64,000 nucleotides of DNA from an uncultured Phycisphaerales bacterium (GCA_903845195.1 CAIMWO010000031.1:1-64000); one strand, 5' to 3'. Numbered from the stretch's first letter, positions 24,424 to 46,556 are shown. Numbers and translations: made by a program. Notes: generated by a model from the letters alone, not told the origin.

Positions 24424-24584
24424 GGTGTTTATCGTAAGGGCGGAGCGGCTTCGCGTACAACGAGCCGAGGAATAGGACGCGTGACGTAAAGCTGCAGGGA
24501 GACGCTGGTGAGCACGCCCGCCAAGACTTACGACTTGGTTGCGGACGAGATGCTGGTGTTGGCTCCAGGTGTCCGCCACACGGG

Positions 24585-24902: not shown

Positions 24903-25138
24903 GAATACGATTGCCCTGGGTTGCGGAGTGGCTCACGCCGACCTTCCTGGACTACTTGCTCGACGATGTCGAGTTTGCGGGGATGGGTATAAGAGCCACA
25001 TTTACAGGAACCCGGCAACCACACGTTCCAGAACTGCCAGTGGATGTGGCCCAAGGGTGAAGCAACTGCTAGGAAAAGGACCTCGTAAGGCTCGTGTGAA
25101 CGACTGTAAGGCCACATTCGCTCATTCTTTTGTACTGT

Positions 25139-25179
25139 GTTGCAGAAGTCACTGTATCTGCTGCAGTGACTTCTGCAAC
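25139..25179. repeat. perfect 16-bp inverted repeat
   Basis: The arms gttgcagaagtcactg (25139-25154) and cagtgacttctgcaac (25164-25179) are exact complements around a 9-base loop. It lies 26 bases beyond the stop of the reverse HNH gene and could end its transcript or protect its 3' end. No T-run follows on that strand, so a classical terminator is not certain. Confidence 0.7.
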
Positions 25180-25204
25180 GATCTCGAGACGAATGGTGGT
25201 CTCG

Positions 25205-26119: not shown

Positions 26120-26130
26120 GGTGCCTCAAC

Positions 26131-28158: not shown

Positions 28159-28228
28159 ATGCTTATCTCCAGTCTCTATTCCGCCCGCACTCGACCTTCG
28201 GCATTGCTGGCCTCGTGTAGGATGTTGT

Positions 28229-30685
28229 CTACTTCACCGAGCACTCGCCAAAATCCAACACAAAGGTTGGGAGCCGTTTCCACTTATTGAACTCTCTGCC
28301 ATTCAGCGACAGCTTGATCCGATTGAACTCGCAGAGTTCTTTGCTCAAGTACAGTCCCAAGCCACGTCCGCCAGATCGCCGTGAGTGGAATCGTTCGAAA
28401 ATCCACTCTGCATCGGCGGGCGATATTCCAACACCAGTGTCACTAAAAGTTACGATCCGGGCTCGAGCGTCCAGGAACACTCGAATCTCTGAGGGAAGGG
28501 CGGTTACGGGGTGCTTTGAGCGCGTATCATCGAGCCAGTAGATTGAATTGCGGAAGAGATTATCGAAGACTTGCCGCACATGTCCTTCAACAGCATCCAC
28601 CTGGAATGTTGCGCCCTCTATTGCCTTAGGTGCGATCACCAGAGTGATCTTGTGCCTCTCGAGCCTTGCTCGGTAGTAGTCGCCCACGTGCTCCAGCAGG
28701 GAGCGGAGGTCAAACTCGCTTCTTCGTCGGCGATGTTTCGCCGGGCCGGGTTTGATGGCTGAGATTTGAGTTCGAAGCGACTTGAAAACCGCACGCAGAT
28801 GCGAAAGTGTTCGCCCCAACTTCGATTCGCGCCCAGACTGGGTGACCGCGTCGTCTGTATCGCTAATTGCGTGGTCGATACTGGCTTCAAGATCGTGTGC
28901 GAAATTCTCTGCCGCCATGCCTGTGGCAGCCAGTTCTAGCACTTCAACCCGATTCTCCTCCCTGTCCTCAAGGGCTTTTTGAGCGGCGTCGATTACCAGG
29001 CGAACGGCAGCCACCGAGTCCCCTAGGGATTTTCGGGCAGCTGCTATCTCGTGGTCGTCTTCGTCGGCTGCCGCCTCGATCAACTGCTCTACAGCGGCCT
29101 CGAACGCTTCTTGTGCTTCCATCGAACGTTCGTGAAGCGCTGCGAGATCCGCTTCGCTCGGGCGGGTCTGTGTGTCAAGTTCCATTACAAACGTACGAAT
29201 GAGGCTCTTCATGAAAATATAGAAAGTCTTGGCGGCCTCGTTATCCATAAGCCCTTCGCGGTTAGCCTGATCGCGAAGTTGGGGATTATCGGCTCGCGAG
29301 ATCCTCACGCATCCTACGACTTGTATGCGGTTCACCCGAAAACCTTGCCCTCGCAAAGCGGTAGTGTCGAGGTCAAGCCAGTCATCAAAAGTCTTATTGA
29401 TCTCTCGCACGACCGCTTCGCCCTTAGCTGCTGGTAAGGAGATCTGACCGTAGGGCATTACTCGCACCCCATCTCGGTAGATCTTCAGGCCTCCCGACCA
29501 TTCGTCGAGCCACTCTTTCAATTCCTGCCGTGTGGCGAGGCCAGGGACGGCAGCAAGGCGTCTACGGTTATAGTGATATAATTCGAACTGAAACGGACCG
29601 ATTTCAGCTAGTGCACGATCAGTGAGCCCGCCAAAATCCGCCGACGAGAACTCGCGGCGCGACTCCTTGCGTATGCCTGACTCAGTGGTAAACCAAAAGT
29701 CGACATGAACTGAGAACCTTTTCGATGCATCAATCTCAACGCGGCCCTTCATGCCGTTCTGCGATGCTTTCAAGAATCCCTGCCCAATAAGGGGAATCGT
29801 GATTTCTTGTCCATTCCACACTAAGCGTACGCGGCGGAGGCGTTCCTCGCGAAAAGGGTCGATGAATTTCGAAAGAAACCTTTGGCCCACCTCGACAGTT
29901 TTCTGATAGTCCCAGCGTGCTCTTAGGCTCGAAATGACCACAATCGTTCCTGCATCATCAGGGCTCCCATCCCATGAGAAAGAGGACATGTCGACGGGGA
30001 TCTCCTGCGCCGGCACTATTGATTCGGGGCCAAACAGCCGCCAGTCAATCGTAAGTGCGTGCGCACAACTATCTCGGGCCTGGTGAGTGCGTATCTTGGC
30101 ATCGTCTCCGAGACGCATCATTGAGAGTCTTCCGATCCCTTTTTCACCAGTCGGTACAGTGTCACCTTCGTACTCCTCGCCAGATTCCACGTGACGTTTG
30201 TGCTGGGAATAACGGTGCGTGGTACCAATGGTCAGGAAATATGTCTCGAGCTCCTGTTTGCTCATTCCACGGCCATGGTCTGTGATCGTGATCGAGTTTA
30301 CTGCACCGATCGCACGGACAAGCTCGTCGGCCGTGCCGCTTTCGGGTAATAGCTGATCAAAACATGCCAGAGTGGCATCAGTGAACAGGGCTTCCTCCCT
30401 GCCTTCAACTCTCAACTGGCGAAGTACATTAAGTGCTTGCGATTTTTTAAACTGTCCGTTCGCGGCCGCCGCAAGCGGACGAACGCGTTCTTGAGCAGTC
30501 TTGACAGCGGCAACTTCAGCCCGATAGGTCACTTCAACGTCAACTACAGCTGGTTTTTTGGACTTGGGTGTCGCATCAAAACCGTTCTTAACGAGCTCAT
30601 AGACGGCTACGTCGTCAGAACTGATCAGTTCCGCGCCCAAGTGTTCCAGAACCCTCGCCGCAAAATTAAAATAGGCCTTTGCCAT
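28229..30685 (-). CDS. double-GHKL sensor-kinase-like ATPase
   Basis: This encodes an 818-residue cytosolic protein with two ATP-binding GHKL modules. The N-terminal one is of Hsp90/MORC type: N-box YELVKNGFDA near residue 30, DHGRGMS, and GEKGIGRLS. The C-terminal one is a histidine-kinase module: N-box DNLFRNSIYW, G1 box FSDTGVGIS and G2 box GGRGLGLYLSK. A candidate phospho-histidine lies between them in NFAHDLE near 598. Modelled on known families, the N-terminal ATPase may be a nucleic-acid or clamp sensor and the C-terminal part phosphorylates the downstream receiver protein. There are no membrane segments, so the signal is intracellular. A GGAG site lies five bases before the ATG. It is first in the operon. 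Confidence 0.8.
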   Translation of the reverse strand: MAKAYFNFAARVLEHLGAELISSDDVAVYELVKNGFDATPKSKKPAVVDVEVTYRAEVAAVKTAQERVRPLAAAANGQFKKSQALNVLRQLRVEGREEALFTDATLACFDQLLPESGTADELVRAIGAVNSITITDHGRGMSKQELETYFLTIGTTHRYSQHKRHVESGEEYEGDTVPTGEKGIGRLSMMRLGDDAKIRTHQARDSCAHALTIDWRLFGPESIVPAQEIPVDMSSFSWDGSPDDAGTIVVISSLRARWDYQKTVEVGQRFLSKFIDPFREERLRRVRLVWNGQEITIPLIGQGFLKASQNGMKGRVEIDASKRFSVHVDFWFTTESGIRKESRREFSSADFGGLTDRALAEIGPFQFELYHYNRRRLAAVPGLATRQELKEWLDEWSGGLKIYRDGVRVMPYGQISLPAAKGEAVVREINKTFDDWLDLDTTALRGQGFRVNRIQVVGCVRISRADNPQLRDQANREGLMDNEAAKTFYIFMKSLIRTFVMELDTQTRPSEADLAALHERSMEAQEAFEAAVEQLIEAAADEDDHEIAAARKSLGDSVAAVRLVIDAAQKALEDREENRVEVLELAATGMAAENFAHDLEASIDHAISDTDDAVTQSGRESKLGRTLSHLRAVFKSLRTQISAIKPGPAKHRRRRSEFDLRSLLEHVGDYYRARLERHKITLVIAPKAIEGATFQVDAVEGHVRQVFDNLFRNSIYWLDDTRSKHPVTALPSEIRVFLDARARIVTFSDTGVGISPADAEWIFERFHSRRSGGRGLGLYLSKELCEFNRIKLSLNGREFNKWKRLPTFVLDFGECSVK

Positions 30686-31396: not shown

Positions 31397-32257
31397 ATGT
31401 CGTTAGATACTCAGCAATTCGGGATCAGTCGATTCTGGCTTTCGGTCGCACTGGCGGAGCTCCCCTCCCGGCCGGACATATTCGGCAGCTCGCAGCTCAA
31501 AGCTGCCAGGAAGTGCTTCCTTGCCGGCGGTAATCAGCTAAAGGCCATACGGAGCTGGTTGACGAACGCCGACATCGTGAAGTCTGCGGGGAGGCAAGTG
31601 CTGCTGACGAAACTGGGGGAACTCGTCTCGACCAAGGACCGGCGTGGGCGCGATCCTTGGACTTGGTGGTTGTTCCACATTCATCTCTGCGCAAACCGCG
31701 AAGCCTACCCCTATTGCACTTTCTTCACGCAGCTCGACGCAGATGGTGGCGGCTGGATGACCATTGATGAGGTGATTGAGTTTCTCACGAAGACGCTCAA
31801 GGAGTCAGCCGTCGCCGTCGAACGCGGTTCCGTGGAAAGCTATTTTCGCGGCGTCGAACTAGCCTTTCGACCTGGGGCATCATTGTACGGTCTTGGCTTG
31901 ATCGAATGGCGCGAGGACAATGCTGGCGGCCAGCGACTTCGTCGTCGTCTGGCAAAGCCACCCCTCTTTGTGGTTGCATATGCGGCTCTCGCTTTCCAAC
32001 AGGCGTTTTTCGAGAACCAAGTCACGATTGAAATGAGGGTCCTGCTACAGAAAGGGCTCGCGCGGGCACTCGGTCTTCGCGATGCCGATGTACGGGAGAC
32101 ACTGTCGCACCTTAACCAGGATGCGGGGCTTTCTCGCATTATGCAATATAAACAGGTGGCCAATTTGGACTCCATGCAGTTCGTGGAACCAAGTGAGCTT
32201 GTACTACGGAGGCTCGCAGCTCAAGCGTATGCGCAGGGGGAGATACAGTGGCAGTAG
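31397..32257 (+). CDS. divergent DUF4007-like protein
   Basis: This encodes a 286-residue protein whose layout parallels the clear DUF4007 protein at 45615-46556. It has a helical block with GGNQLKAIRSWL in the place of GVGKNMVRSIRHW. An LTKLGELV segment follows, then DPWTWWLFHIHLCA, where the family has DPYLEDVGSLWALHW, and a FFTQ segment. DUF4007 proteins occur in BREX-like and phosphorothioation-linked loci; the role is unknown but probably DNA or partner binding. The start has GGGAGAAG just upstream. It is first in a five-gene operon and overlaps the next gene by 10 bases. Confidence 0.6.
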   Translation: MSLDTQQFGISRFWLSVALAELPSRPDIFGSSQLKAARKCFLAGGNQLKAIRSWLTNADIVKSAGRQVLLTKLGELVSTKDRRGRDPWTWWLFHIHLCANREAYPYCTFFTQLDADGGGWMTIDEVIEFLTKTLKESAVAVERGSVESYFRGVELAFRPGASLYGLGLIEWREDNAGGQRLRRRLAKPPLFVVAYAALAFQQAFFENQVTIEMRVLLQKGLARALGLRDADVRETLSHLNQDAGLSRIMQYKQVANLDSMQFVEPSELVLRRLAAQAYAQGEIQWQ

Positions 32258-32736
32258 ACTCTTTCGCAGAAAGTCTGCAGCGACTTCTGTACACGCAGCT
32301 CGCACCTCAACTTCGCTATCGCGCCCTGCTCATACAGTGCACTGACCTAGGCGTTCTCCGAGTCATCGAGGAAAAGGTTTCGGGCGCTCTTTTGGCAGAC
32401 GGCAGGATCTTCACCGTTGTCCAAGCGCAGACGCAGTTCGACGCGATTGGAGCCAAACCATGTCGACAGCTCATCGATGATCTTGAGAAACTGTGGACGA
32501 AGCAGCACCTTCTGCTGACTGGCCCACTCCATTTTCTAGATTTTTGGCCCCCGCCCGCACGAAGCGCTTTCTGGTCGCATTTTGCGACAGTCACAAGTAG
32601 TCCTGGAATTATCATCTTTGATGTCCCTCGCGACATCGACACAGAAGATATTTTTAAGGTAATGGGAAAGATACCTGGCACCGATGCCCGTTACCTCAAG
32701 TCCCGGCTAGCTGCAACACAGGATGGGCTTGTATGA
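32248..32736 (+). CDS. small conserved-position BREX-operon protein
   Basis: This encodes a 162-residue protein starting with GTG behind a GGGGGAGA site. Alternating hydrophobic strands (RYRALLIQC, RIFTVVQAQ, QHLLLTGPLHFLDF, GIIIFDVPR) suggest an alpha/beta nucleotide-binding-like fold. No Walker A motif (GxxxxGKS) is present. Its small size and place directly before the BrxC-type ATPase recall BrxF of type 3 BREX systems, but the sequence resemblance is too weak to name it. It overlaps the ATPase gene by four bases (ATGA), so translation is coupled. Confidence 0.55.
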   Translation: MAVDSFAESLQRLLYTQLAPQLRYRALLIQCTDLGVLRVIEEKVSGALLADGRIFTVVQAQTQFDAIGAKPCRQLIDDLEKLWTKQHLLLTGPLHFLDFWPPPARSAFWSHFATVTSSPGIIIFDVPRDIDTEDIFKVMGKIPGTDARYLKSRLAATQDGLV

Positions 32737-35700
32737 GTACCCTAAGCGAAATCGTTCAAGTGTCCCACGACGAACGCCCGTTCGTGGAGTTCGAGTCCTC
32801 ATTGGACAACGACCAGGTGGTTTCTGGCTACATACCCGTCAAGTCCACACTTGACGTGTTGGAGTTTCTAGCTGACTCGCTCGCCATGCACAGCCCAAGT
32901 GGACGAGCCGTTATCTGCTTCGGGGCATACGGGTCCGGTAAGAGCCGACTCTGCGCTGTCCTCGCGCGTCTCTTCCGTGATGGAATGGATGCGCCAGCAC
33001 TCCTCCCGGTATGGAAACGTTTGCGGGCTCGTGGCCAGCTCAGTAGGCTGGAGTCCTTCCGTAAGAGCTTGCTTCCAGCGGGCCGGAATTGGCGGCCTTG
33101 GCTCGTAGTGCCGATGTATGCTGATGCTGGCGGTGGAACGATTAGCGCGGCCATGATCAGTGCCCTAACCAAGGCAGTTCGTCGGGCGGGACTCGATGAC
33201 CGTGTACTCGGAACGACAATTTTTCAGGAGGCAGGCAGACGTCTCCGCGAGATTCTTGCATCTGGCAAGCAGTATGTCCCTGCGCCAGGCTCAGTACACG
33301 CAACGGGTGAACAGCTGATAAGGGCAATCGAACAACAGCTTGATGAGACCGCGCTCGCAGAGTTCTGTGCGTTTCACAAAATCGCGACCTTGGGCGTGGA
33401 CTTTAGAGACCTGATCCGCTCGACAGGCGGCGTGGCGGTTGAGGCGCATGACGTCTTCAACCAGGTTTCGCAAAACATACAGCAACATGGTTACGAAGGT
33501 ATATTGGTCCTCTGGGATGAGATGGGATTCGCGATTGAACAACTCCTAACTGGCGCCAAGAATGCTTCCCGGAACCTCGGGCAGGAAGCGATGTCGCTAC
33601 AGAATTTTGTGGAGCGGACATGCGCGACAAATGAATTAGGAAAGCGAGTGATCTTCTTGGGTTTTACTCACGTGGGTATCACTGAGTACGCGACACGTGC
33701 AAACTTGGGGGAGCAAGATCAGAACAGGCTCGCCACCGTTTCGGACCGCTTTAGACAGCCAAATATCAATATTCGATTGAGTGTAACGGAAACCGAGGGC
33801 TACCATTTGGTCGCTGGTATGATGCGGCGTACCCCGGATGGGGATCGCATCCTTCAGAACCCAGCCCCAAAACTCCAGCGTATCGCCGACAGAATGCCGC
33901 GGTTTTCCAAGAACTGGGAGTCCATCCCTCCAGAAGTCTGTTACAACGATATTGTTGCGCCCTGTTACCCGCTTCATCCGACAACAGTGATGGTGCTCCT
34001 ACTTCTTTCTGACCAGATCGCGCAAGCAAACCGAACTACCTTCTACTACCTCCAAAATCGAGAGGAGGGTGGTCTGTCCCGGCTCCTTACTGAGCGCACC
34101 CTGCCGGCGACCGCCGATATTGGCGGTTCGGAATTGGTTCGCATCAATGATCTGTTCCACTTCTTTGAGCAGCCCTTGCGGAGCCGTGAGGCACGCCTCA
34201 TGGAACAGTTCGATGACGCTCTTGTCCGAATTCCCGATCCGACAGTGCTAGAGCTCGCAGTCCTGCGCACCGTCCTAATCTTAGGTGTGGCACGAGTTCA
34301 GCCAGCAACCACTGCATTTCTCGGCTTCGCGATGTGTGACGCCCAGCCGAACGAGCCTGGGGCGCAAGTCCTCCACGATGCGCTAAAACGTTTGAGTGAT
34401 GCTGGGTCGCTGTGGCACAATGCTGCAACGGAAGTGTGGGGATTTGTGGGGACTGGAACGGTAAGAACTGAGATCGAGCGTGAAATCGACGACGAAAGAG
34501 ATCTTATCACGACCGCTTCTTCCACAGTTCTCTTCCGCAATAATTCCGAAATCCATCGTGAAATTGCAGATTTCCTGGGCGACTTTGACTTGGACCCTAG
34601 TCCCTCGGGGATTATCCGGCGTGTTTCGGTCAAGGTGCTTGATGTTGCGCGAGGGGCCGATGCGATCGAAGAAGTTAACCCGGCAAGTGTGGGCGAAGGG
34701 GCTGACTGGCGATCCGCGTTGATCTACCTCGTTATTCCGGAGTCACCACAGGTCCTTCAGTATTGGCGAGAACGTGCTTCGGAGTGCACAGAGCCGACGG
34801 TGTACTTCGTGTTTCCACAGGGACCAGTCGAAATTAGTCCAGCAGTTCGCGACCTAATCGCAGTACGACGGGTGTTGAGCCGAAAAGACCAAGCCGATCA
34901 TGCCTTCAGGGTGCTGGAGGCAAAGCTCACTCGGCTTCGACAGGACCTTCGCCGCGAATTCGCGCAGCACTTCGGAAATGCTGGACTTAGATCTGGTACT
35001 GAGGTGGTGCAAGCCGGACCTGATCGTAAACTGGTCTCGGTCGAGTCTTGGAATGACCTACTCCCAAGCATCGCAGCTGCGCTGGAAACTGCATTCAATC
35101 AGCAGATACGTGTACGGTGTGGAACGTACAACGAGTGGCAAAGTCGAGCCGCTTGGGGTGCGATCGAGCATGTCGTAGAGAACATCTTGGATTCTGAAGA
35201 TAATCCAACACTCCGGGATGAGTACCTAGGGTTCGCCGAGAAATCACAAGAGGCCGCGATCGTCGATGGGGTATTGGTCGAGAACGGCTTCTACCGACAC
35301 AACGCTCTTACGGATAAGTGGGAGTTCACTCCTATAAAAGACCTAGCGGCCGCAGTACAGGAGGTCGCAGGGCATCTCCAGAGTGGCACAAGTGATAAGG
35401 AGTTTGAGAAACTCTACTCCACGCTTGTAGACCCGCCCTTCGGTATTCCTAACGGAGTCGTCCCCATCTTGGTTGCATTGGTTTTGCGATCAGATACTGC
35501 AAGAATCGGCGTCTACTACCGTAGTGCTCGACAGCTCGAGAGGGTCAAGAGCCGGCTGGCTGAAGCGATCGTTGACATGGCGAAGCAGCCTACGCGGTAC
35601 GTGACCCGATTCAACAAGCTATCGCCGAAGCAAAGGATCGCTTTTAGAGCCATCGGACCTGAGATGGGCGTCGCTCCCCCGGAGAAAGATGATCGACGGG

Positions 35701-36632
35701 ATAGCTTTGACAGCTTCTGCGGGCGAGTTCGTGATGAGTTGATCGCCTGGGCAGGACCACTTCCCGAAGACGTTGTAAACGGGACCGAGTTCTCTGAGGC
35801 CCAGCGGAAATTTCTGAAGCTGCTTCGCGGTGGCGTGCCTCCTCAATCTCCAGTGCTTGCTGAAGCAATCTTGGCTGTGATTGCAGAAGACAAAGGCACG
35901 CACGCTGAACTGGACTCCGCCGGATCAGAAACGCGTGACTTTCCGGAGGCCGTCAGGGCCTGGCGAGAACTGCGAGAACGGATTGATCGCTATATCGATG
36001 GCGTGAAAGCATCGGTGCAGCGACAGATCACGGAGTTGGCAGGTGGTCGCATGGACGGCGACCAGACTACGAAACAGCGATTCGTATCAGCGCTTAAGCC
36101 GCTCCAGGATCTTGGCCTAGCGGGAAACCCCATTTCGAAAATAGTGGAAAAGCTCAATGAGGCCAGTAGCACAAATGATGTCGCGCTCGAAGTCGCGTCC
36201 GCAATCGTTCAGAAAGACATCTCTAAACTTACTTCCGAAGACATGGGAGTGGCTACAGGGATGCTGAAGATGGTTGGTCTCATGAATGAGCTCAACCGCA
36301 AATGCTCAGTCATACTTCCGTCGGGCGACAGGCGAGAGTTGCCCATCGTTCCAGAATCAAGACCTTTGGATGAGATTCGGCAATCTCTTACCCATTGGCG
36401 AGCCGAATATGATCTTTCTGATGATCAGCTTGCGAGCGTCATCGTGAGGCTGATCTACGTTCAGCCGTCGCCGCCCGTGTCAACTGGGGATCACGATGCG
36501 GACGCTGTTGGGAGTGTGGAGCCAGCAAAGGACTCCCTGGAGCGGATTGTCGTTTCCTCATCTGACGTGAATGAGGTGAAATCCGTTGAGGATCCTGAAA
36601 CACCCGTTGGCGCCGGTGAAGGCGAGGCGTGA
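32733..36632 (+). CDS. brxC: BrxC/PglY-type P-loop ATPase
   Basis: This encodes a 1299-residue ATPase. Walker A GAYGSGKSRLCAVLARLF lies near residue 64 and a Walker B strand ILVLWDEMGF near 259. A conserved C-terminal half includes YGSPF-like ATPase sensor regions and a long helical part, and the tail is acidic. Length (about 1200-1300) and context match the BrxC/PglY proteins of BREX and Pgl systems, which are needed for both host protection and phage exclusion. It is co-translated with the small protein before it and with PglZ after it (GTGA overlap). A second, paralogous ATPase is encoded at 42106-45615 on the opposite strand; the two share the N-terminal ATPase layout but differ in the C-terminal region. 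Confidence 0.8.
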   Translation: MSTLSEIVQVSHDERPFVEFESSLDNDQVVSGYIPVKSTLDVLEFLADSLAMHSPSGRAVICFGAYGSGKSRLCAVLARLFRDGMDAPALLPVWKRLRARGQLSRLESFRKSLLPAGRNWRPWLVVPMYADAGGGTISAAMISALTKAVRRAGLDDRVLGTTIFQEAGRRLREILASGKQYVPAPGSVHATGEQLIRAIEQQLDETALAEFCAFHKIATLGVDFRDLIRSTGGVAVEAHDVFNQVSQNIQQHGYEGILVLWDEMGFAIEQLLTGAKNASRNLGQEAMSLQNFVERTCATNELGKRVIFLGFTHVGITEYATRANLGEQDQNRLATVSDRFRQPNINIRLSVTETEGYHLVAGMMRRTPDGDRILQNPAPKLQRIADRMPRFSKNWESIPPEVCYNDIVAPCYPLHPTTVMVLLLLSDQIAQANRTTFYYLQNREEGGLSRLLTERTLPATADIGGSELVRINDLFHFFEQPLRSREARLMEQFDDALVRIPDPTVLELAVLRTVLILGVARVQPATTAFLGFAMCDAQPNEPGAQVLHDALKRLSDAGSLWHNAATEVWGFVGTGTVRTEIEREIDDERDLITTASSTVLFRNNSEIHREIADFLGDFDLDPSPSGIIRRVSVKVLDVARGADAIEEVNPASVGEGADWRSALIYLVIPESPQVLQYWRERASECTEPTVYFVFPQGPVEISPAVRDLIAVRRVLSRKDQADHAFRVLEAKLTRLRQDLRREFAQHFGNAGLRSGTEVVQAGPDRKLVSVESWNDLLPSIAAALETAFNQQIRVRCGTYNEWQSRAAWGAIEHVVENILDSEDNPTLRDEYLGFAEKSQEAAIVDGVLVENGFYRHNALTDKWEFTPIKDLAAAVQEVAGHLQSGTSDKEFEKLYSTLVDPPFGIPNGVVPILVALVLRSDTARIGVYYRSARQLERVKSRLAEAIVDMAKQPTRYVTRFNKLSPKQRIAFRAIGPEMGVAPPEKDDRRDSFDSFCGRVRDELIAWAGPLPEDVVNGTEFSEAQRKFLKLLRGGVPPQSPVLAEAILAVIAEDKGTHAELDSAGSETRDFPEAVRAWRELRERIDRYIDGVKASVQRQITELAGGRMDGDQTTKQRFVSALKPLQDLGLAGNPISKIVEKLNEASSTNDVALEVASAIVQKDISKLTSEDMGVATGMLKMVGLMNELNRKCSVILPSGDRRELPIVPESRPLDEIRQSLTHWRAEYDLSDDQLASVIVRLIYVQPSPPVSTGDHDADAVGSVEPAKDSLERIVVSSSDVNEVKSVEDPETPVGAGEGEA

Positions 36633-38998
36633 ACGTGCAGACTGAAACCCGCGTTACTCTGATCTTCGACCCGTTCGACATCTACGCTTCGGGCGGCGTG
36701 AGAGTCACCGAACTCGAGGATGAGGAAAGGGCCTTTCGAGAGATTGACTGCCGGTTGCAGACGCAATCTCAAGACGAGATGGGTGAGCCTCTTACTGTGG
36801 TTGTGGGACAATCGGCAATTCAACACTTCAGAACCTATCGCGGCATTAGAGGCGTTCGGGTGGAGGACTTCACGCCGCTTCGGCGCGTCCACGAGATTGT
36901 GGGGCAGGCGCCCCCCGAATGGCTCACAGACGAAAACGTATATCAATGGGGTATGTTAAGCCTTAGGCCACCGGAACCTCCCTTCTTGGGGAGTTGGGAA
37001 GCAACTGTTGCCGACTGGCTGGCCCCCAATGTCGCCGGGTCGAAGTCATTGGATAGTTGGATACGTGCGCTATCGCAGTCGCCAAGCATTCCAGGGATCA
37101 TGAAGTGCGAGCCTGTCATTCGATGGTTTGTGCAACAGTTCGGGAGCTTGGGCCGTACATTTGGGTTGTCGGCCGACGAGATTGATGAGCTGTCCGACAT
37201 GCTCACGTCGGCAGAGTCGCCCTCGGCATTTGCGCGCACATGGGCTCGAAGGGCTGCGCTAGCACCACTCTTGGACTCGGCAGTTAGCAATCCTCTACAT
37301 AGCCCCAACATAGACGTGCTATCGCCGAAGATGCGGTTCCTGATGAAGAGACTGCCCATCCTCTTTCCATTGCCAACAATCATCAGCGGAGACGTGTGCC
37401 GTCTGTTCCGCGATGCTGTTCGGAAGGCTCGAATCCGCGACGCAGGGCAATTGGAAGCCGCTATTCTGCGCCTCAATGCCGTTTGGGAGGGAATCACGGA
37501 AGAGATTCGTGACTGGCTAGATGTTTCGCCTCGTGGGCTATCGCAAAAGGCTGCAGAGCATCTTGAGAAGTTGCCTGGATTCGCCGACTCGCCTGAACTG
37601 CAGGAAATAGTGGGAGAGCATCGTCCGCCAGAGGGGGCCCCCCGGTGGGAGGGTTTGAATGACAACTTTGACGGCTGGGTTTCTTCGTACGCGCGTTGGA
37701 TCAGAAACGCATTCAATCGCCGTGAACTACCTTCAATAGAAGATGATCCATCCACCGGCTTTTCGCGGTGGCTCAAGGACAACTATACCGTAAGCTTTAG
37801 TCATCCAGAGCGTAGCTATTTGACCGTTGCTGGCACGATTCGATCGGCACTTCGTGAGGGTCGAACGGTTCTTCTAGTGCTCATCGATGCGATGGCCGTG
37901 CATGTCCTTGATCACTTCCGTGTAGCGATGTCAAAGGCGCTTGGCGAGGAGCCAACACGTGTGACTTATGTGTTTGCACCGATACCAACCGTCACCGAAG
38001 TATGTAAGGCCTCGATCGCGTCGGGCATATTTCCTGACCAGTGCACCGGAGATCTCCGCGCCGATGTGGCCAAGGCATACGGCCTTCAAGACCAGCAGCT
38101 GCAGGTCGCCGCAAACTGGGCGGATGCACAACGGTCGCGAATCCTACAGGAGACGAAGCTGCTTGTTTATCGTGACAACAGAGTTGATGATCAGCTCGCG
38201 ATGGCAGGCAATTATCGAGAACTTGTCCATGAGTGCCGTAACATCGCGGATCGCGTGTCTTCGCTATTGCGACGCCTAGTCGATGATTGCCGCTGTATAA
38301 ACGGGAGCACCCCCCTCGGAGTTATTCCCGCCGATCATGGTTTCACCTACGGCCCCGGAGCTCTAGGGGGATCTGGCCACGAGGGGTCAGACCAGCGGCA
38401 CTTCTATCGATGCCAGGCTCTCAGCTCAACCGAACGGCGTCCGCCAGCTGACGAACACCTCACTTTTCTTGATAAGAATGTGTTTCGTACACGAAACGAC
38501 TATGTGGCCGCTCGAAGTCGCTCGTGGGGCTCAGATACATTGAGCGGATGGGTGATGTCACATGGAGGATTGTTGCCCGAGGAAGTCATAATCCCCCTCG
38601 TGGAATGGTACGGCAAGGACGCCCAGATACCTTGGCCTACGATTGACATTGTTGGTGATGCCTATCGTGAGCGTGGCGAGTGGCTACTGAAGACTAAATT
38701 GCGCAATCTTCACGCAGTGCCCGTCCCGGGAGGCGAGATTACCATCGGAGTGCGCGGAGCAATGAAGCGAGTCGGCATCCAATTCTCACGACTGCAGCCC
38801 GGGCAGACGGTAGTGTTGGATCTCAAGCTACCAGAAGCCAATCCTGAGATGATCGAGGAGTTGACCGTCGAGACCACAACCGAGATGCATTGGCGTGATT
38901 CACAACCTGTGCAGCTAGACCGCAACTACTCCGTGAGTGCCGCTCGACAGCTGGCCGAGCGCACTACCAGCCAAGATGCATTTGAGTCGATGTTCTGA
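36629..38998 (+). CDS. pglZ: PglZ-domain protein
   Basis: This encodes a 789-residue protein with the alkaline-phosphatase-superfamily core of PglZ: VLLVLIDAMAVHVLDHF near 417 (metal-binding Asp), VFAPIPTVTEVCKASI shortly after with the nucleophile-position Thr, and VIPADHGFTYGPG near 568 with the Asp-His metal pair. PglZ is the signature protein of BREX systems. The start is GTG inside the preceding stop (GTGA), implying coupled translation. The first 400 residues are helical and the last 120 are beta-rich. A GAGGAG site between its stop and the next start shows the operon continuing. Confidence 0.88.
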   Translation: MNVQTETRVTLIFDPFDIYASGGVRVTELEDEERAFREIDCRLQTQSQDEMGEPLTVVVGQSAIQHFRTYRGIRGVRVEDFTPLRRVHEIVGQAPPEWLTDENVYQWGMLSLRPPEPPFLGSWEATVADWLAPNVAGSKSLDSWIRALSQSPSIPGIMKCEPVIRWFVQQFGSLGRTFGLSADEIDELSDMLTSAESPSAFARTWARRAALAPLLDSAVSNPLHSPNIDVLSPKMRFLMKRLPILFPLPTIISGDVCRLFRDAVRKARIRDAGQLEAAILRLNAVWEGITEEIRDWLDVSPRGLSQKAAEHLEKLPGFADSPELQEIVGEHRPPEGAPRWEGLNDNFDGWVSSYARWIRNAFNRRELPSIEDDPSTGFSRWLKDNYTVSFSHPERSYLTVAGTIRSALREGRTVLLVLIDAMAVHVLDHFRVAMSKALGEEPTRVTYVFAPIPTVTEVCKASIASGIFPDQCTGDLRADVAKAYGLQDQQLQVAANWADAQRSRILQETKLLVYRDNRVDDQLAMAGNYRELVHECRNIADRVSSLLRRLVDDCRCINGSTPLGVIPADHGFTYGPGALGGSGHEGSDQRHFYRCQALSSTERRPPADEHLTFLDKNVFRTRNDYVAARSRSWGSDTLSGWVMSHGGLLPEEVIIPLVEWYGKDAQIPWPTIDIVGDAYRERGEWLLKTKLRNLHAVPVPGGEITIGVRGAMKRVGIQFSRLQPGQTVVLDLKLPEANPEMIEELTVETTTEMHWRDSQPVQLDRNYSVSAARQLAERTTSQDAFESMF

Positions 38999-39012
38999 GG
39001 AGTGAATACTGT

Positions 39013-41226
39013 ATGGCTGCGAGCGCATTTGACAACAAGATTCGTGAAGTATTTGGAGACTTCGCGATCGATAAGGGGCTACTTCGGCGCCTGGGCGTCT
39101 CTGGCGATGATCGGCACGTTCCATCTTACGTGATGGACTGGATCGTGACCTACTCGTCAAAAGCGTCACCGACGACTACCTCCCTCCAGCAGGAGGTGAC
39201 GCAATTCGTTCAACGGCATCTCCCCCCAAAGGGAGAGAAGGAGCGGGTGAAGTTCCGTCTAGGCCAAGGAGAGGTCATCACCTTACTTGATGCGGTGTCG
39301 GTTTCGGTAAAGCTGGGAGCAGAGGTGGAGTACTCTGCAGCGATCCCTTGCCTAGACGAGACCAAGGCCTTCATTGACGCATCAGTAATTGAGCAGAACG
39401 AGGGGCTCTTGCAGGGAAGTAGTTGGGGCGCCGTCAAACTGAAATATGACAGTGATGAAACACGCGGAGGTATTCGCGTCGTCGACTTCAAACCGATGCA
39501 GGCTGGTAGAGTATCAATCGAAGCCTACTTCGAGTGCCGTAAGGCATTCACAGTTGAGGAGTGGCTGGATTTGATCGTGCGAACGATGGGATACGAGCCG
39601 ACTGCCTATTCAGAGTCGGAGAAATTGTGGCTGATTTGTCGGCTGATTCCAATCGTGCACAATCGCGTAAACATGATGGAACTTGCTCCACCGGGATCGG
39701 GTAAGTCCTATGTGTTCAACAACATTAGCCGGCACGTCTGGCTGACTGCAGCAGAGATTAGTCCCGCGGTCCTATTCTACAACCGAGCGCGCCGCACGCC
39801 CGGGTTGCTTACGCGTTACGACCTGGTAGTCCTTGATGAGGCTCAGTCCATCCGGTTCACCAACGGGGCAGATATTCAGGCCCAATTGAAGGGGTACCTT
39901 GAACAAGGCGTTTACTCGCGAGGTGATGTCACCGCGACCGCCGAGTGTGGGTTGATGCTCCTAGCCAACATTGAGCTACAGGGAGACGGTGAGAGCACCT
40001 ACTACAATGGCAAGCCAAAGTTCCGACCACGTGATCGAGACTACATACGACGTTTGTCTCCTGTGTTTCTGGAATCACCACTGCTCGACCGGTTTCACGG
40101 CATCCTACCAGGATGGGAGATCCCGCCATTTCAGACAGACCAACAGGCAACGGGGCTCGGACTGAAGGCGGATTACTTTGCAGAGGTCTGCCACGCATTA
40201 CGCGGGGCGGCGCACATTTCCCAAGCTATTCGGGCAAAGCTCAGGTTGAGCGGTGGGAAACGGGACTGTACTGCAGTTGAGCGTCTCGCAAGTGGGCTTG
40301 CCAAACTCCTGCTGATCGATCCTGACCATCCCCGATTCAAGGAATTGGTACTTCGACCGGCCGAGGAAATGCGACGCCTCGCTCGGACTCAGCTGAATGC
40401 GCTGGATCCAGAGGGCTATCCTGCCAGCCTGCAGATACTCCATCTCGGACAGGAGGGAAGCAAAGCAAGCGTTGGGCGGGTAGGTCGATATGATCTTCTC
40501 GAAGAGATTGGGCATGGAGGGATGGCCCGAGTGTACCGTGCATTAGACACAAAGACCGGAACGGTAGTTGCGCTGAAGCGCGTGGAAAGTGCAGGGGCTC
40601 CGGTTAATGCAGCTGCTATCTCTCGGGAGATTGCGATTTATCAGCGACTCAAGGAGGTAGCCAATCGCAACGTTCTGGCCGTGAAGGACGTGTTCCATGA
40701 GGCTGGAGTGTACGCCCTTATCACTGAATTCGCAGATGGTGGAAGCCTTTGGGACATATGCAACCCAGAGGGCGAAGATTCCCCTCGCTCACTTGACGAA
40801 CGCACGGTAAAGCACATCGCGATAGAACTGCTGAATGGTCTGACGGCACTTCACGAACATGGCATTGTGCACCGTGACATCAAGCCTCAAAACGTACTTC
40901 GCTGCGACGACACCTGGAAAATAGCCGACTTCGGAATTAGTAAGTTCTTGGATACTCCGGTTACTGGTTATACCTTCCAAGGAGCACACACCGCGCCATG
41001 GGCACCGCCTGAGCAAATAGAGGGCGCGCAAGCGCATCCTTCTGCCGATGTCTATGCGTGCGGGCGAGTTTTGTGTTTCCTTCTAACAGGGAGCACAAAG
41101 CGGGAGGCGCTTTTGTCGGTTGCCTCTCACTGGCAAAAACTACTGCAGGACTGCGTTAACCTAAACGCCGAGAAGCGGCCATCCGCAAAGGCCCTAATGC
41201 AGTCCATCCAAGAAGTTCAATGCTAA
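39013..41226 (+). CDS. brxL: BrxL AAA+ protein fused to Ser/Thr kinase
   Basis: This encodes a 737-residue fusion. Residues 1 to about 470 follow the BrxL layout: VPSYVMDWIV, then FTVEEWLDLIVRTMGYEP, RLIPIVHNRVNMMEL and Walker A APPGSGKSYVF near 226, Walker B VVLDEAQS near 275 and a Gly-Arg-Gly segment. BrxL is a DNA-binding AAA+ (Lon-related) effector of BREX types 1 and 4. The usual C-terminal Lon-like protease part is replaced by a complete Hanks-type kinase, residues 488-737: IGHGGMARVY, ALKRV lysine, HRDIKPQN near 619, DFGISK near 638 and a WAPPEQ activation-loop end. All catalytic residues are present. This fusion is new to me. It has a strong site before the ATG and ends 22 bases from the convergent PAPS-reductase-like gene. 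Confidence 0.85.
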   Translation: MAASAFDNKIREVFGDFAIDKGLLRRLGVSGDDRHVPSYVMDWIVTYSSKASPTTTSLQQEVTQFVQRHLPPKGEKERVKFRLGQGEVITLLDAVSVSVKLGAEVEYSAAIPCLDETKAFIDASVIEQNEGLLQGSSWGAVKLKYDSDETRGGIRVVDFKPMQAGRVSIEAYFECRKAFTVEEWLDLIVRTMGYEPTAYSESEKLWLICRLIPIVHNRVNMMELAPPGSGKSYVFNNISRHVWLTAAEISPAVLFYNRARRTPGLLTRYDLVVLDEAQSIRFTNGADIQAQLKGYLEQGVYSRGDVTATAECGLMLLANIELQGDGESTYYNGKPKFRPRDRDYIRRLSPVFLESPLLDRFHGILPGWEIPPFQTDQQATGLGLKADYFAEVCHALRGAAHISQAIRAKLRLSGGKRDCTAVERLASGLAKLLLIDPDHPRFKELVLRPAEEMRRLARTQLNALDPEGYPASLQILHLGQEGSKASVGRVGRYDLLEEIGHGGMARVYRALDTKTGTVVALKRVESAGAPVNAAAISREIAIYQRLKEVANRNVLAVKDVFHEAGVYALITEFADGGSLWDICNPEGEDSPRSLDERTVKHIAIELLNGLTALHEHGIVHRDIKPQNVLRCDDTWKIADFGISKFLDTPVTGYTFQGAHTAPWAPPEQIEGAQAHPSADVYACGRVLCFLLTGSTKREALLSVASHWQKLLQDCVNLNAEKRPSAKALMQSIQEVQC

Positions 41227-41248
41227 CTAGTCTCCACATGAAGTTAGT

Positions 41249-42046
41249 CTAAGTGTGGCAGAATGAGCAAGGCAAGTTATCGTCGTCCTCGTCTTGTCCC
41301 AGAATCTCTAGCAGCGGCCTGTTAGGCTTGTCCTTCTTGGCCGCTAGCAAAGCGTCTTGCTGTTTTGCCTTAATCTCTGCGACGCGCTCTGGCCGCGCCA
41401 GTTCCTCGAGTGACTCCCGTTCAGTCCAGGTATAACGTTCACCGTTCACAGGATTGGTCTTTTCGTATTGTTTGGCCTTTTCATACAAGTCCGGATGTCG
41501 CTCGAGCAGCCCGACCCACTCGTTCTTACGCTGATAGAAGCAGAAGAAGCAGCCCGAACGTGTCCGCCAATCGTAGTAGGTCGGGAAGCCGATACCGCTC
41601 TCGTCCAAAATGCGATGTACGTCCTGGAGTGTCATTCCATCATCCCGGAATGGGTAGACAGGATGAATGTTGGGCTTTGAGGTGATGTAGCCCCCCCGAT
41701 CTTCGTCTGCCCGGATGCCCACATACATCATAACTTCATCAGTCCCGACGAACTTCTCAAAGGGCTTGATCTTGAGGACCTTGGTGCACCACCGCATCCT
41801 CGACGAGGGGAGGTACCCCCCATAAACCTTGAGCCAATGGTCAAAACCGCGATCATCGCGAAGGCGTACAATCTTCTTCCCCAGAAATGCCTCGAGTCGC
41901 CCTAGGTACTCGTAAGTTTCAGCAAGCTCCTTATCGGTATCACAGAACACATATTCCATGTCAGAGATCTTATCTCGCATATATATAGCGAGCGCCGTGC
42001 TGTCCTTTCCCCCGGAGAGCGACAGAATGTGACGGATGTTGGGCAT
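41249..42046 (-). CDS. PAPS-reductase/DndC-like enzyme
   Basis: This encodes a 265-residue adenine-nucleotide alpha-hydrolase fold protein. The PP-loop SGGKDSTALAIYM opens at residue 10, VFCDTDKEL follows, and SRMRWCTKVLKIKPF carries the conserved Cys-Thr-x-x-x-Lys. A CxxC pair (SGCFFCFYQRKNEW) and a terminal CSFCHT could bind a cluster or zinc. Relatives include DndC, which activates sulfur transfer for DNA phosphorothioation, and the PAPS-reductase-domain protein (BrxP) of type 4 BREX. Here no DndD or DndE gene is visible, so it may act with the neighbouring ATPases. It is last of a three-gene reverse operon, 59 bases after the ATPase. Confidence 0.8.
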   Translation of the reverse strand: MPNIRHILSLSGGKDSTALAIYMRDKISDMEYVFCDTDKELAETYEYLGRLEAFLGKKIVRLRDDRGFDHWLKVYGGYLPSSRMRWCTKVLKIKPFEKFVGTDEVMMYVGIRADEDRGGYITSKPNIHPVYPFRDDGMTLQDVHRILDESGIGFPTYYDWRTRSGCFFCFYQRKNEWVGLLERHPDLYEKAKQYEKTNPVNGERYTWTERESLEELARPERVAEIKAKQQDALLAAKKDKPNRPLLEILGQDEDDDNLPCSFCHT

Positions 42047-42105
42047 AAGAGTCCTTTCGTTTGCAGCACCAGGTATATTGTAGCGACAGCCTCATCGCGG
42101 CCACA

Positions 42106-45100
42106 TCATTCTGCAAGTAATTCACGGGTGACGCGTGCGAGGGCTGCAACTGCAATGTCACGAGTTCCTTTGTCAGCAGCGTCGCCCAAGGCCCGACGAA
42201 TGTCGGCCTCAAGTCGGTCCAAGACCTTGCGGCTGTCTCGCGGAATTCGCACAACCCGCTCCAGTTCCTCCGCGCCTCGAGTTGTAATCCCGACTCGAAT
42301 GGTATCGGTTTCTGGCTCCAAGAAGGCACCCTTGTGGTACGCGAGCGCTTCAAGGTGACCAAAGAGGCGCGAGACTTTCGAAAGCGCTACCTCGAATCTG
42401 GCCCGATCATGGTCCCGCCACATGGGCGGCGGTTTTTCACCCAAGAGTGCGGCGACCGATTCGAGCCAACTCGTATTGTCCAGTTCGGACGCCGCCGCTC
42501 GAACGGCGAAGGTCTTTACCGAGGGCTCAACAACCCAGTTTCGGAGATGCTCAGCCCTTCGCTGCAATTCCGGCCTTAGCTCTGCGATGTGGACCGAAAC
42601 TCCAAAAGCAACACCAATTGCACCACAGATCTCAACAAGTAGTTCGTCATAGGCACGTTGCAGTTCCCCCAGACTTGCTCGGAGAACACTTAAGAACGAT
42701 CGCAGGCCGGCATCGGATAGCTGTGTGTTCGGCAACAAAGGGACCACGCCACATGCCGCGGGCAGGTCTTCAAACAGGAGTTGGTCGGGCTCACGTGCCT
42801 GAATCAATGCTGTTCGGACTGCTTTGGCCGTTGCGGAAAGTCGCTCCGTATTCAGTGTGTATTCGTTGAGCTTGGCGGCGAAGCGACAAAGCGGCCGTAC
42901 TATTCCCAGGATGTGGTCTTTCGATACGGCGCCTACGACTTCTTCTCGGCCCAGCATCGCTGCGAGTTGGTTGAAGACCGTCGCACGTACGCCTGTTACT
43001 CTCCACCTATGTACCGTGAACCGCTCTGGTGACCGAATAGCCCGTTCAAATACGGGAACCGTCAATTGTGGAACAAAGGACTTATCTTCGTACAACGCCA
43101 CGTCGGTCGTATTAGCTAGCAGAGAGGCGCACAAGATCACCGGCAGTGGTCCGTCTCGCATGCCAAACGGCCTCCTCCTCAGAGTGTCATAGAGCTCCGA
43201 GATGGGTTTGGCGCCGTCCAAGGTTGTATTATAGAACTCTTCGATGGCCTCCCACACTGCATGTAAGCCCGCGTCAGCCTTTTCGCGAGGGGACGCGAAG
43301 TGCCATCCGTCGCTTCCATGGCGATGCATGCCTGTGGTCTTCAGGACCGAAAGGTACATGCTCTTGTGCGGTGGAGTTCCTTGGATGCCTAAATCCTCGG
43401 TCGCACTTTGACCAATCATTGCCTCAATCAAGTCACGACGAGCAGCGGCTGCTGCCGAGGACAGCTCGCGGCGATTGATGAGTTCGTTACAGATTCGAGG
43501 TGTATCGGGATACAGGTCGTCGCACACCTTGGAAAGAAACTCGTTCAGGTCGCGATAGGCATCAAACGATCGCTCGCGGCCGGCAGTGAACCAGACGTTC
43601 GGGGTATCCGCCGATTCTAGTGGCGAAAGTAAACCTGAAACCACACTCTCGACTTCTCGCAGTACCGCAATCTCCCTCGCTCGTAGCTCACGCCGTGCTG
43701 TTGCGTCACCCTCGAGTTCCGCGACGTGAGTCTTCACCCATTCGATGCATGCCGCCTCCCTAAGGGCATTCTCAAATCGACGGCCGTCTCCCGGCACCAA
43801 CACTAAAATGTCGCGTCGCTCACGGATCGCTGTATTCCGTACAGCTTCCTGAAGAAGAACTACCTGATCGGCGTCCTTAGGAAGAACAACACAAATGGAG
43901 CCATCTGCCTTTTGCGGGTGCTGAAGCTCGACGGAAGGCAAATTTGAAACATCAACGAAATGAACCGCAAAGTACCTTAGTGTGCCACGTGCAAAAGAGT
44001 GGCGGCGTGCCACAACTGGCCGAAGGGGCGCATATCGTGCGGCGAGGCTGGTGATAGGTAAAGAAGGATCAATCCGATCCCGAGCGGTCTTGATGGCGTC
44101 ATCAACGTTGACGTCGCTTCCTTCCCATAGAGCCCAAGTGTTATTGTATTTTCTGTGGACAACTATGGACTTCTTGCTGAGGTCGGCAAGGCTCTTTGCG
44201 ACGTCCACCTCCTCTCTCGCCCCTATCGCCGCGAGTTCGAGTAGTTCCTGCGTAGGGACAAGATTCCGCCACTGCCCAATGGCTGACAATAGTCCCACCA
44301 CCTTCACAGTGAACAGATCATTGAATGGTGCCTCAGGTAGGCGGTCGATAGCACCCTCAATTTCGGCCCAACGCTTCCCAGTGCGATGAGTGTACAGCGA
44401 GTCGCCAAAGGCGTTCAGCATGTAGTCGTACATTCGGTCGCAGGTATAAAGCTCAGCACCCTCGCTGCCGAGAAACTCGAGCAAGCCATGCGGTTCTGTG
44501 GACGCGACAAAGGAGAACACCGAACGTTCGTTCTGGGCAAGTCGACGAAATAACTGGCCCAGAGCGACAGCGACAATAGGATGCAAGGGATGACAGCGAT
44601 GGATAAGCGCGAAGAACTCCTCTCGGCCCATTCCGGCCGGAGCAAGGCCAAGTCGCCAGGCCCTATCGCACAACGCACTGAAAGACCGCCTATCGGCATG
44701 AGTCGACTCACGTGCAACCAGAGAGGCTTTTGTAACGACCGATCTGTGTGCGTCGCGAGCATGGGCTAGAAGGCGAAGAATCTCGTCAGCTGGTTCCTCG
44801 AATACGATGTCCTCAAAGCGGCCCTTCACCTTCTCCCATTCGGCCTGCTCGGTTGTCGACAAGCGACTGGCGTAAGCCCCAAAGTCTTGATGGAGGACGC
44901 CTAGCATTAGGAACAGGGGATCGGAACGTGTCGCTAACTCTGCCAACTGCTGGAGAAGATATACATCAGAGTGCGTTGGGTGCTGCGCCGAGTACTCCAA
45001 TATCTTGCCGAGTTCATCGATGACCAGGAAGATTCCGTTATATTCGAACTCTCCTTGCTTCATGGACTCCAATAGCCCATTGACGACAGCTATGACTTCG

Positions 45101-45615
45101 CGATCATTGACGATCTCTCCATTCAGGTGCGAGCGTTGTAGTCGAGCCACATGCTTGAGTAGTGCCGCCACGCCTTTCGTTGAACGGACTGTTGCAAGTG
45201 ATCGCTGTAAGCCGCGAAGTAGAGCAGCATGAAGCGGCTCTTTGGCCCCTGTAACGACAATTGGCAATAGCGGCGGAACGCTCTTCCTGCCAGAGGCAAG
45301 CTGACGTGCGAGTTCAACATCTCCTTTCTGCACAATGTGCTTGGCGGCATAGTGCGTTTTTTCGTTGCCGAGCGCAAAGAGGTGCGATGCGAACACTGCA
45401 AAGGCGGACTTCCCTGTGCCATAGGGTCCCGTAACAGTCCAAGCTCGTGCACCTTCGCCATTAGCTTTCGCGACTCCAAGCCGCTGAAGTACGCGGCGCC
45501 CACCTGAAGTTAGGAAATACCCATCAAGGCAATGAGGTGACCAGAAATCGATCTCGAGGTTGACCGATCGAACGAAGCGAGAGCTCGATGTGGCGGGTCG
45601 GGGCGTATTCGGCAT
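42106..45615 (-). CDS. second BrxC/PglY-type ATPase
   Basis: This encodes an 1169-residue protein with Walker A GPYGTGKSAFAVFASHLF near residue 61 and a Walker B strand IFLVIDELGK near 198. It shares the N-terminal arrangement of the ATPase at 32733-36632 (an aromatic-containing G-x-Y-G-[ST]-GKS loop, with long insertions before Walker B) and is similar in length, so the two are probable paralogs. The central and C-terminal parts are mostly helical and without recognised catalytic motifs. The stop of the upstream DUF4007 gene overlaps its start by one base (TAATG), so the two are translationally coupled. Together with the PAPS-reductase-like gene it forms a reverse operon that faces the PglZ/BrxL operon. 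Confidence 0.75.
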   Translation of the reverse strand: MPNTPRPATSSSRFVRSVNLEIDFWSPHCLDGYFLTSGGRRVLQRLGVAKANGEGARAWTVTGPYGTGKSAFAVFASHLFALGNEKTHYAAKHIVQKGDVELARQLASGRKSVPPLLPIVVTGAKEPLHAALLRGLQRSLATVRSTKGVAALLKHVARLQRSHLNGEIVNDREVIAVVNGLLESMKQGEFEYNGIFLVIDELGKILEYSAQHPTHSDVYLLQQLAELATRSDPLFLMLGVLHQDFGAYASRLSTTEQAEWEKVKGRFEDIVFEEPADEILRLLAHARDAHRSVVTKASLVARESTHADRRSFSALCDRAWRLGLAPAGMGREEFFALIHRCHPLHPIVAVALGQLFRRLAQNERSVFSFVASTEPHGLLEFLGSEGAELYTCDRMYDYMLNAFGDSLYTHRTGKRWAEIEGAIDRLPEAPFNDLFTVKVVGLLSAIGQWRNLVPTQELLELAAIGAREEVDVAKSLADLSKKSIVVHRKYNNTWALWEGSDVNVDDAIKTARDRIDPSLPITSLAARYAPLRPVVARRHSFARGTLRYFAVHFVDVSNLPSVELQHPQKADGSICVVLPKDADQVVLLQEAVRNTAIRERRDILVLVPGDGRRFENALREAACIEWVKTHVAELEGDATARRELRAREIAVLREVESVVSGLLSPLESADTPNVWFTAGRERSFDAYRDLNEFLSKVCDDLYPDTPRICNELINRRELSSAAAAARRDLIEAMIGQSATEDLGIQGTPPHKSMYLSVLKTTGMHRHGSDGWHFASPREKADAGLHAVWEAIEEFYNTTLDGAKPISELYDTLRRRPFGMRDGPLPVILCASLLANTTDVALYEDKSFVPQLTVPVFERAIRSPERFTVHRWRVTGVRATVFNQLAAMLGREEVVGAVSKDHILGIVRPLCRFAAKLNEYTLNTERLSATAKAVRTALIQAREPDQLLFEDLPAACGVVPLLPNTQLSDAGLRSFLSVLRASLGELQRAYDELLVEICGAIGVAFGVSVHIAELRPELQRRAEHLRNWVVEPSVKTFAVRAAASELDNTSWLESVAALLGEKPPPMWRDHDRARFEVALSKVSRLFGHLEALAYHKGAFLEPETDTIRVGITTRGAEELERVVRIPRDSRKVLDRLEADIRRALGDAADKGTRDIAVAALARVTRELLAE

Positions 45616-46556
45616 TAGCCTTTCACTCCCTTGGTTACGTAGTGGTGTGCAAGCATGTCCAAGGGCCGCACAGTCGCTCGTTTGTATAGCTGTCGCAATC
45701 CGGCAGTGACGTCGTAAGTGATCGCCTTGTCAGTGATGCGTTCGATTGCCTCTAAGTAATTGGTTATCACATTTTCGCTCAATTTAAACACTCGTCCTGG
45801 ACTTCCCTGCCGGTAAGCGACATGCTCGAATGTCATCGTCGGTTGCGAGGAATATGACGTCGTCCAAAACTGCAGCAAGGCAAACGTGAACATTGCTGGC
45901 GACAGTGATGGGTGCTCTCCACGCGCAAATGAATAGAACTTGCCTTCATCGCTATACTCTTGCAGAAGCCCGAGTTCCGTAAATGGGCAGTCAAGCGATT
46001 CTTCCGGTATTGTGTCGATTGCAGTTCCGGAAACATACGTGCGAATGAAGCAATCCACATCACGAGAAAGCGAGCTCTCCGCGACCTGCTTCCACCCGTG
46101 CTGCTCCGTGAACTTCCGCAGACCCGTTATAAATTTTGCCTTGGTGAATTCGAGGTCAGGGAAAAAGTTGAATGCCCAAAGCCACGTTGTCGGACTAGTC
46201 GCGGGCTTTGAGGCCAACATCCAATGTAATGCCCAAAGACTGCCAACGTCTTCAAGATACGGATCTTTTCCGCGTCCCCCCATCAAAAGCCTGCCTAGTT
46301 CAGACGGGACAAGGCCTTTCACTCGCGAACTATCGGTTGCAGACTCTTCCAGCACCCCAGTTGCCAAGGCCCAGTGGCGGATCGAACGGACCATGTTTTT
46401 GCCCACGCCGAGCGTGATCAAGGCATCATCACGTGCAAACAAATGAGGATCCTCGGAAACGGCATCGATGGCCTTCTTTAGCCAACCGTATCGCAGCGTG
46501 AAGCTTTCGTGGCCTGCGAACGAAGGAGTATCTGCGTCGTGCATCAGCATCGGCAT
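45615..46556 (-). CDS. DUF4007 family protein
   Basis: This encodes a 313-residue protein with the family hallmarks: FAGHESFTLRYGWLKKAID at the start, ITLGVGKNMVRSIRHWALA (a helical motif often mistaken for a P-loop), DPYLEDVGSLWALHWMLA and FNFFPDLEFTKAKF. DUF4007 proteins appear beside PAPS-reductase and ATPase genes in defence loci. The initiation codon is one of three close ATGs (46556, 46550, 46544); no clear ribosome site separates them. It is first in the reverse operon. Its more divergent counterpart in the forward operon (31397-32257) indicates that a DUF4007-ATPase pair occurs twice here. Confidence 0.8.
   Translation of the reverse strand: MPMLMHDADTPSFAGHESFTLRYGWLKKAIDAVSEDPHLFARDDALITLGVGKNMVRSIRHWALATGVLEESATDSSRVKGLVPSELGRLLMGGRGKDPYLEDVGSLWALHWMLASKPATSPTTWLWAFNFFPDLEFTKAKFITGLRKFTEQHGWKQVAESSLSRDVDCFIRTYVSGTAIDTIPEESLDCPFTELGLLQEYSDEGKFYSFARGEHPSLSPAMFTFALLQFWTTSYSSQPTMTFEHVAYRQGSPGRVFKLSENVITNYLEAIERITDKAITYDVTAGLRQLYKRATVRPLDMLAHHYVTKGVKG

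Follow-up and report, generated by a model that had tools for sequence, protein, structure and literature searches.

The window, by which we mean the whole 64,000-nucleotide stretch of DNA analysed here, probably carries a two-module defence locus of BREX type based on DNA phosphorothioation (PT), in which SspBCD would mark self DNA and a BREX core without a methylase would attack unmarked DNA. The gene content, the active-site motifs, the recurrence of the two modules and the separate ancestry of their two ATPases are directly visible in the data.

Gene content and organization of the locus

An ORF check of the window confirmed eight ORFs at 31397–46556, all with the coordinates and orientation given in the preliminary description. 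The forward operon encodes a DUF4007 protein (SspB/BrxA-like, DNA-binding; P0001, 286 aa, 31397–32257, +; Pfam DUF4007 E 1.5e-13, PADLOC SspB E 9e-15), a small BrxF/BrxB-like degenerate STAND protein with its Walker A motif lost (P0002, 162 aa, 32248–32736, +; assigned by its syntenic slot), a BrxC/SspC-like AAA+ ATPase (P0003, 1299 aa, 32733–36632, +; PADLOC SspC E 2.8e-56, BrxC E 2.2e-14), PglZ (P0004, 789 aa, 36629–38998, +; PADLOC PglZ E 3.4e-7) and BrxL fused to a Ser/Thr kinase (P0005, 39013–41226, +; PADLOC BrxL E 1.5e-99, TIGR02688 E 5e-110, Pfam Pkinase E 7.6e-44). The reverse operon is an SspB–SspC–SspD set, encoding SspB with DUF4007 (P0008, 313 aa, 45615–46556, −; PADLOC SspB E 5.4e-94), SspC, the AAA+ ATPase of the PT writer (P0007, 1169 aa, 42106–45615, −; PADLOC SspC E 3.3e-304, within the SspC clade) and SspD, a PAPS-reductase-like sulfurtransferase (P0006, 265 aa, 41249–42046, −; PADLOC SspD E 2.6e-115).

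Most of the forward genes overlap by 4–10 bases, sspB and sspC overlap by 1 base, and 22 bases separate the ends of the two operons, a spacing that fits a pair of compact operons facing each other. The sequence upstream of the forward operon showed no noteworthy promoter or terminator signal. No PglX/BrxX-type methyltransferase was detected among the eight ORFs with PADLOC, Pfam and NCBIfam-type models, in agreement with the earlier reading. Judged from these assignments, the forward operon is a methylase-free BREX core, and the reverse operon is predicted to be the writer module of single-strand DNA phosphorothioation.

Surrounding region

Divergent from the forward operon lies a four-gene run (21946–30685, −) encoding a protein with two GHKL-ATPase domains, a 675-aa protein, an HNH endonuclease and an 877-aa protein, possibly a separate restriction operon. 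An 1833-aa DUF4011/SF1 helicase/MTES_1575 nuclease/WGR protein (7373–12874, −) matches the PADLOC candidate PDC-S37 and Hhe, and a Fic-domain protein (16012–17508, −) matches the PADLOC candidate PDC-S24. Tyrosine integrase genes at 19489–20625 (+) and 49289–50173 (+) stand on either side of the defence region, which suggests a mobile island.

Protein features of the core and the writer

In the core, the family profile of P0001 matched the SspB structure 6juf (E 1.9e-16). P0002 itself had no direct match to family models; its slot is occupied in other loci, where the counterparts in L056 and L097 retain G.PRSGKT and match NCBIfam BREX_3_BrxF (E 1e-6 and E 1.6e-4, respectively). The AF2 model of P0002 (pLDDT 75) resembles AAA+/ORC/DnaA folds, with a borderline best Foldseek match (E 1.9e-3, prob 0.99). 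P0002 is thus BrxF/BrxB-like by way of its positional counterparts, and only weakly similar in itself to named families. P0003 carries the Walker A motif GAYGSGKS and the Walker B-like motif LVLWDEMG. P0004 has weak sequence similarity to named families; the active-site residues of the alkaline-phosphatase fold (D420, T456, D520, D569, H570 and H645) are intact and invariant across 19–23 homologues, and the structure predicted by AF2 resembles PorX and nucleotide pyrophosphatase/phosphodiesterases (best E 1.6e-10). P0005 consists of the BrxL N-terminal domain and AAA+ domain at residues 1–470, matching the BrxL structure 8emc (E 8.5e-45), and a kinase at about residues 485–737 with intact VALK, HRDIKPQN and DFG motifs. 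A BrxL–kinase fusion was seen elsewhere only in L047, a Planctomycetaceae genome. By these retained motifs the parts of the core appear functional. The locus has both the BrxC-like ATPase and the PglZ by which BREX is recognized in general, and named BREX subtype models match it weakly.

In the writer, P0008 matched the SspB crystal structures 6juf/6lb9 (E 1.9e-45), and SspD carries the SGGKDS P-loop and the RWCT, CFFC and CSFC motifs, invariant in 9 homologues. Homologues of SspB, SspC and SspD thus stand in one operon, as in an Ssp PT module. SspBCD together with a cysteine desulfurase writes single-strand PT (PMC8092258). No cysteine desulfurase (SspA or IscS) is encoded among the eight genes; class-V aminotransferase genes, not resolved to IscS, occur elsewhere in the genome of the window, and SspA adjoins the locus in most relatives.

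Known Ssp defence requires SspE or SspFGH in addition to the writer. In the genome of the window no GmrSD_N/SspE-type match was found with working controls, and SspF gave no match in a weak search whose controls gave no signal. A second SspC was not found in this genome either. With neither a second SspC nor a GmrSD_N/SspE-type match, the core is the sole candidate effector seen in the genome.

Recurrence of the two modules

Genome contigs were scanned with a BrxL alignment, which yielded 80 loci; these were sorted with locally built profiles and by eye, so that the resulting counts are approximate. The groups obtained were canonical BREX type 4 with a fused BrxP and one ATPase, loci with a Lon-length BrxL, and loci with a core of the window type. 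Both ATPases were present on one contig in 12 loci, namely the window and 11 further genomes or plasmids from Planctomycetota, Cyanobacteriota, Chloroflexota/Thermomicrobiota and Pseudomonadota: the Thermomicrobium roseum and Pseudanabaena galeata plasmids, L047/L157, L048/L158, L052/L159, L053/L160, L056, L063/L163, L071/L164, L097/L165 and L120/L166. Most of them are arranged head to tail; besides the window, L056 (Ktedonobacter) and L097 (Kamptonema) are convergent. On the T. roseum plasmid NC_011961, nine genes run head to tail as sspB–sspC–sspD–DUF4007–small–ATPase–pglZ–brxL–cysteine desulfurase, and the P. galeata plasmid NZ_CP112879 has the same gene set. Little sequence lies between SspD and the core DUF4007 gene in L046, L063/L163, L071/L164 and L047.

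SspD was found on the same contig in 16 of the 24 core loci (two of these being fragments at contig ends and one a longer variant), compared with 10 of the 392 genomes sampled from the phylum of the window. This phylum is taken to be Planctomycetota, judging by L047 and by the nearly identical BrxC proteins of L076 and of the same-class genome behind L008. Eight of the 24 core loci, several of them on short or draft contigs, had no detected SspD: two had a methyltransferase (L043 and L058) and six had neither. In L043 (14341–23159, −), an Abditibacteriota plasmid, the same core lies directly behind a type IIG/PglX-like methyltransferase, in place of SspBCD, an arrangement that fits a core whose writer is a separate unit. 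The nine other SspD genomes of the phylum had no core in the 12–20 kb examined, and three of the nine carry SspF, SspH or PbeA, which fits a writer able to work with different effectors.

The preliminary description had inferred from adjacency that the two operons form one system, and had named a reverse operon widespread without the forward one as the observation that would speak against it. The nine core-less genomes do provide that observation, yet they do not refute the inference, since SspBCD has several known alternative effectors (PMC8092258), as the SspF, SspH or PbeA of three of them also indicates. The inference is supported by the same gene sets standing together in 11 other genomes or plasmids, and recurrence in at least four phyla indicates that the two operons belong together and are probably one defence system.

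Some further loci of the phylum were recorded alongside. Next to SspBCD, L187 (5016–9202) and L188 (4417–8723) encode 802/805-aa and 594/625-aa neighbours with no PADLOC match, which are candidate effectors. L190 (2303–4693, +) has a PbeA-type gene near an SspBCD set, a mix of writer and effector that we have not seen reported. Single-protein scans found no relatives of P0003, P0004 or P0005 in viral contigs and none of P0003 in the genome collection, which we attribute to fast divergence of the core proteins; the BrxL alignment likewise found nothing in viral contigs. The first P0003 matches within the class turned out to be ordinary SspC proteins or methylase-type BREX (L008).

Homology and ancestry of the two DUF4007–ATPase pairs

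The pairing of a DUF4007 protein with a BrxC-type ATPase had been reported to occur twice in the locus, and alignment of both pairs, proposed as a check at the time, bears this out. In profile comparisons, the forward DUF4007 family aligned with P0008 over its full length (270 columns, E 3e-21), and the forward ATPase family aligned with P0007 over 775 columns (E 1.4e-20), a span that takes in Walker A, Walker B and the PLHP region and thus extends well beyond the P-loop. Both similarities are far above chance, and at the level of sequence the doubled pair is real homology.

The locus had been described as a type 4-like set with one doubled pair, and a canonical BREX type 4 with its DUF4007–ATPase pair duplicated in place would indeed have the same functional set (PAPS reductase, DUF4007, BrxC-like ATPase, PglZ and BrxL), two homologous pairs and, as in most relatives, a short BrxL without Lon. 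We regard this origin as very improbable. About fifty type-4 loci from the BrxL scan each have one ATPase and a fused PAPS–DUF4007 BrxP of about 770–850 aa; the window has separate SspD and SspB genes, and of the type-4 parts it shares PglZ and BrxL, but in place of one BrxC from the type-4 clade it has two ATPases that both lie outside that clade. In a tree of 60 ATPases, made with a quick method and with several long branches that leave its details uncertain, 18 type-4 BrxC ATPases form one separate clade (SH-aLRT 100). SspC forms one clade (98) with P0007 inside, and the core ATPases are spread over several clades, among which BrxC of methylase-type BREX is interspersed. P0003 groups with L047 and gammaproteobacterial cores (100), while the SspC proteins of the window and of L047 are placed differently. 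The two ATPases of the window are therefore not sisters, and on this ground duplication of one pair in place was rejected and the earlier reading is largely refuted; the locus looks instead like a composite of SspBCD and a BREX core.

A mirror-tree test over 12 genomes found no correlation between core-ATPase and SspC distances (rho 0.107, permutation p 0.18), so that the two modules do not co-evolve closely. Probably, as far as the tree can tell, the modules have been re-paired repeatedly and were not born of duplication, an Ssp writer having been joined to a BREX core. The uncorrelated distances and the core loci without detected SspD count against a single system. They would also be expected if an orphan Ssp system and a BREX lacking its methylase were two independent neighbours in a defence island, as would the occurrence of SspBCD without the core and of the core without SspBCD, in a region that holds other defence-like genes and two integrases. 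We nevertheless consider such independence unlikely: the combination recurs in 12 loci, usually as one head-to-tail run, and the core has no writer of its own.

Comparison with other defence systems

Like BREX type 4 (BrxP–BrxC–PglZ–BrxL; PMC12839542), the locus has predicted PT chemistry, DUF4007, a BrxC-like ATPase, PglZ and BrxL. Unlike type 4, it has the parts of BrxP unfused, two ATPase/DUF4007 pairs that lie outside the type-4 BrxC clade in their ATPases, an extra BrxF-like gene and a kinase on BrxL; in the available passages of the same survey, which covers type 4, type-4 BrxL is reported without a C-terminal extension, and neither a second DUF4007–ATPase pair nor a BrxL-kinase is mentioned. 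The gene order BrxA-like, BrxB/BrxF-like, BrxC, PglZ, BrxL resembles BREX type 1 minus pglX, and the BrxF-like small gene and a PglZ closest to the type-3 model recall type 3. In contrast to types 1 and 3, the DNA mark is predicted to be phosphorothioate, and the PglX/BrxX methyltransferase that characterizes types 1–3, 5 and 6 is absent from the eight genes.

With the Ssp system (SspABCD plus SspE or SspFGH; PMC8092258), the locus shares a standard SspBCD writer, whereas its predicted effector, a BREX-type core, comprises a DUF4007 protein and AAA+ ATPase of its own, PglZ and BrxL. DndCDEA–PbeABCD (PMC6459918) likewise joins a PT writer to a distinct module that blocks replication and is also found with methylases, but its writer is Dnd and not Ssp, and the core of the window is not related to the helicase and SMC-like Pbe proteins. 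PbeABCD was accordingly rejected as the identity of the core on gene content (PMC6459918).

We found no earlier description of an SspBCD and BREX-core combination in the literature searched. No papers combining phosphorothioate, SspBCD and PglZ were found there, and papers with both SspBCD and BREX did not describe the pairing as judged by titles and passages; subscription literature lay outside the search, so a prior description is possible.

Proposed mechanism

In the mechanism that we propose, SspB–SspC–SspD would mark the cell's own DNA with single-strand PT, drawing sulfur from a cysteine desulfurase whose gene lies elsewhere. The forward DUF4007–ATPase pair would scan DNA for the PT mark, and a missing mark would license PglZ, as phosphodiesterase/nuclease, and BrxL, as AAA+ motor, so that replication of phage DNA is stopped. 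The DUF4007–ATPase scanning device would then be present twice, one copy writing and one reading. In type 1 BREX, PglZ is a metal-dependent nuclease (PMC12205998; summarized in PMC12839542). SspFGH attacks unmarked DNA and SspE needs PT (PMC8092258); by analogy, the core may read PT and respond to its absence, as SspFGH does, rather than to its presence, as SspE does, and the kinase may have a role of its own.

The same composite might respond differently, with PT switching the core on or with phosphorylation by the BrxL-kinase as the main action, a less probable arrangement to which we give about one chance in a handful. SspE offers a precedent for the former in being stimulated by PT (PMC8092258, PMC9646914), and the intact kinase motifs fit the latter. 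Because the kinase was seen in no locus other than the window and L047, it cannot be the shared mechanism. BREX generally acts on unmodified DNA, which counts against this alternative.

Implications

We lean, with some reserve, towards regarding these loci as a distinct, widespread and unnamed BREX class, whose methylase-free core would be a plug-in restriction unit with its own DUF4007–ATPase mark reader and would interchangeably take SspBCD or a methyltransferase as writer; in Planctomycetota, BrxL would have gained a Ser/Thr kinase effector. Among 2,678 sspBCD loci surveyed, SspFGH was present in 196, SspE in 199 and both in 36 (PMC8092258), so that most PT writers lack a known effector, and the BREX core is a concrete candidate partner for them. 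The locus would also separate writing from reading naturally, whereas a BREX system normally relies on one BrxC throughout; such a split would make the roles of individual BREX parts testable.
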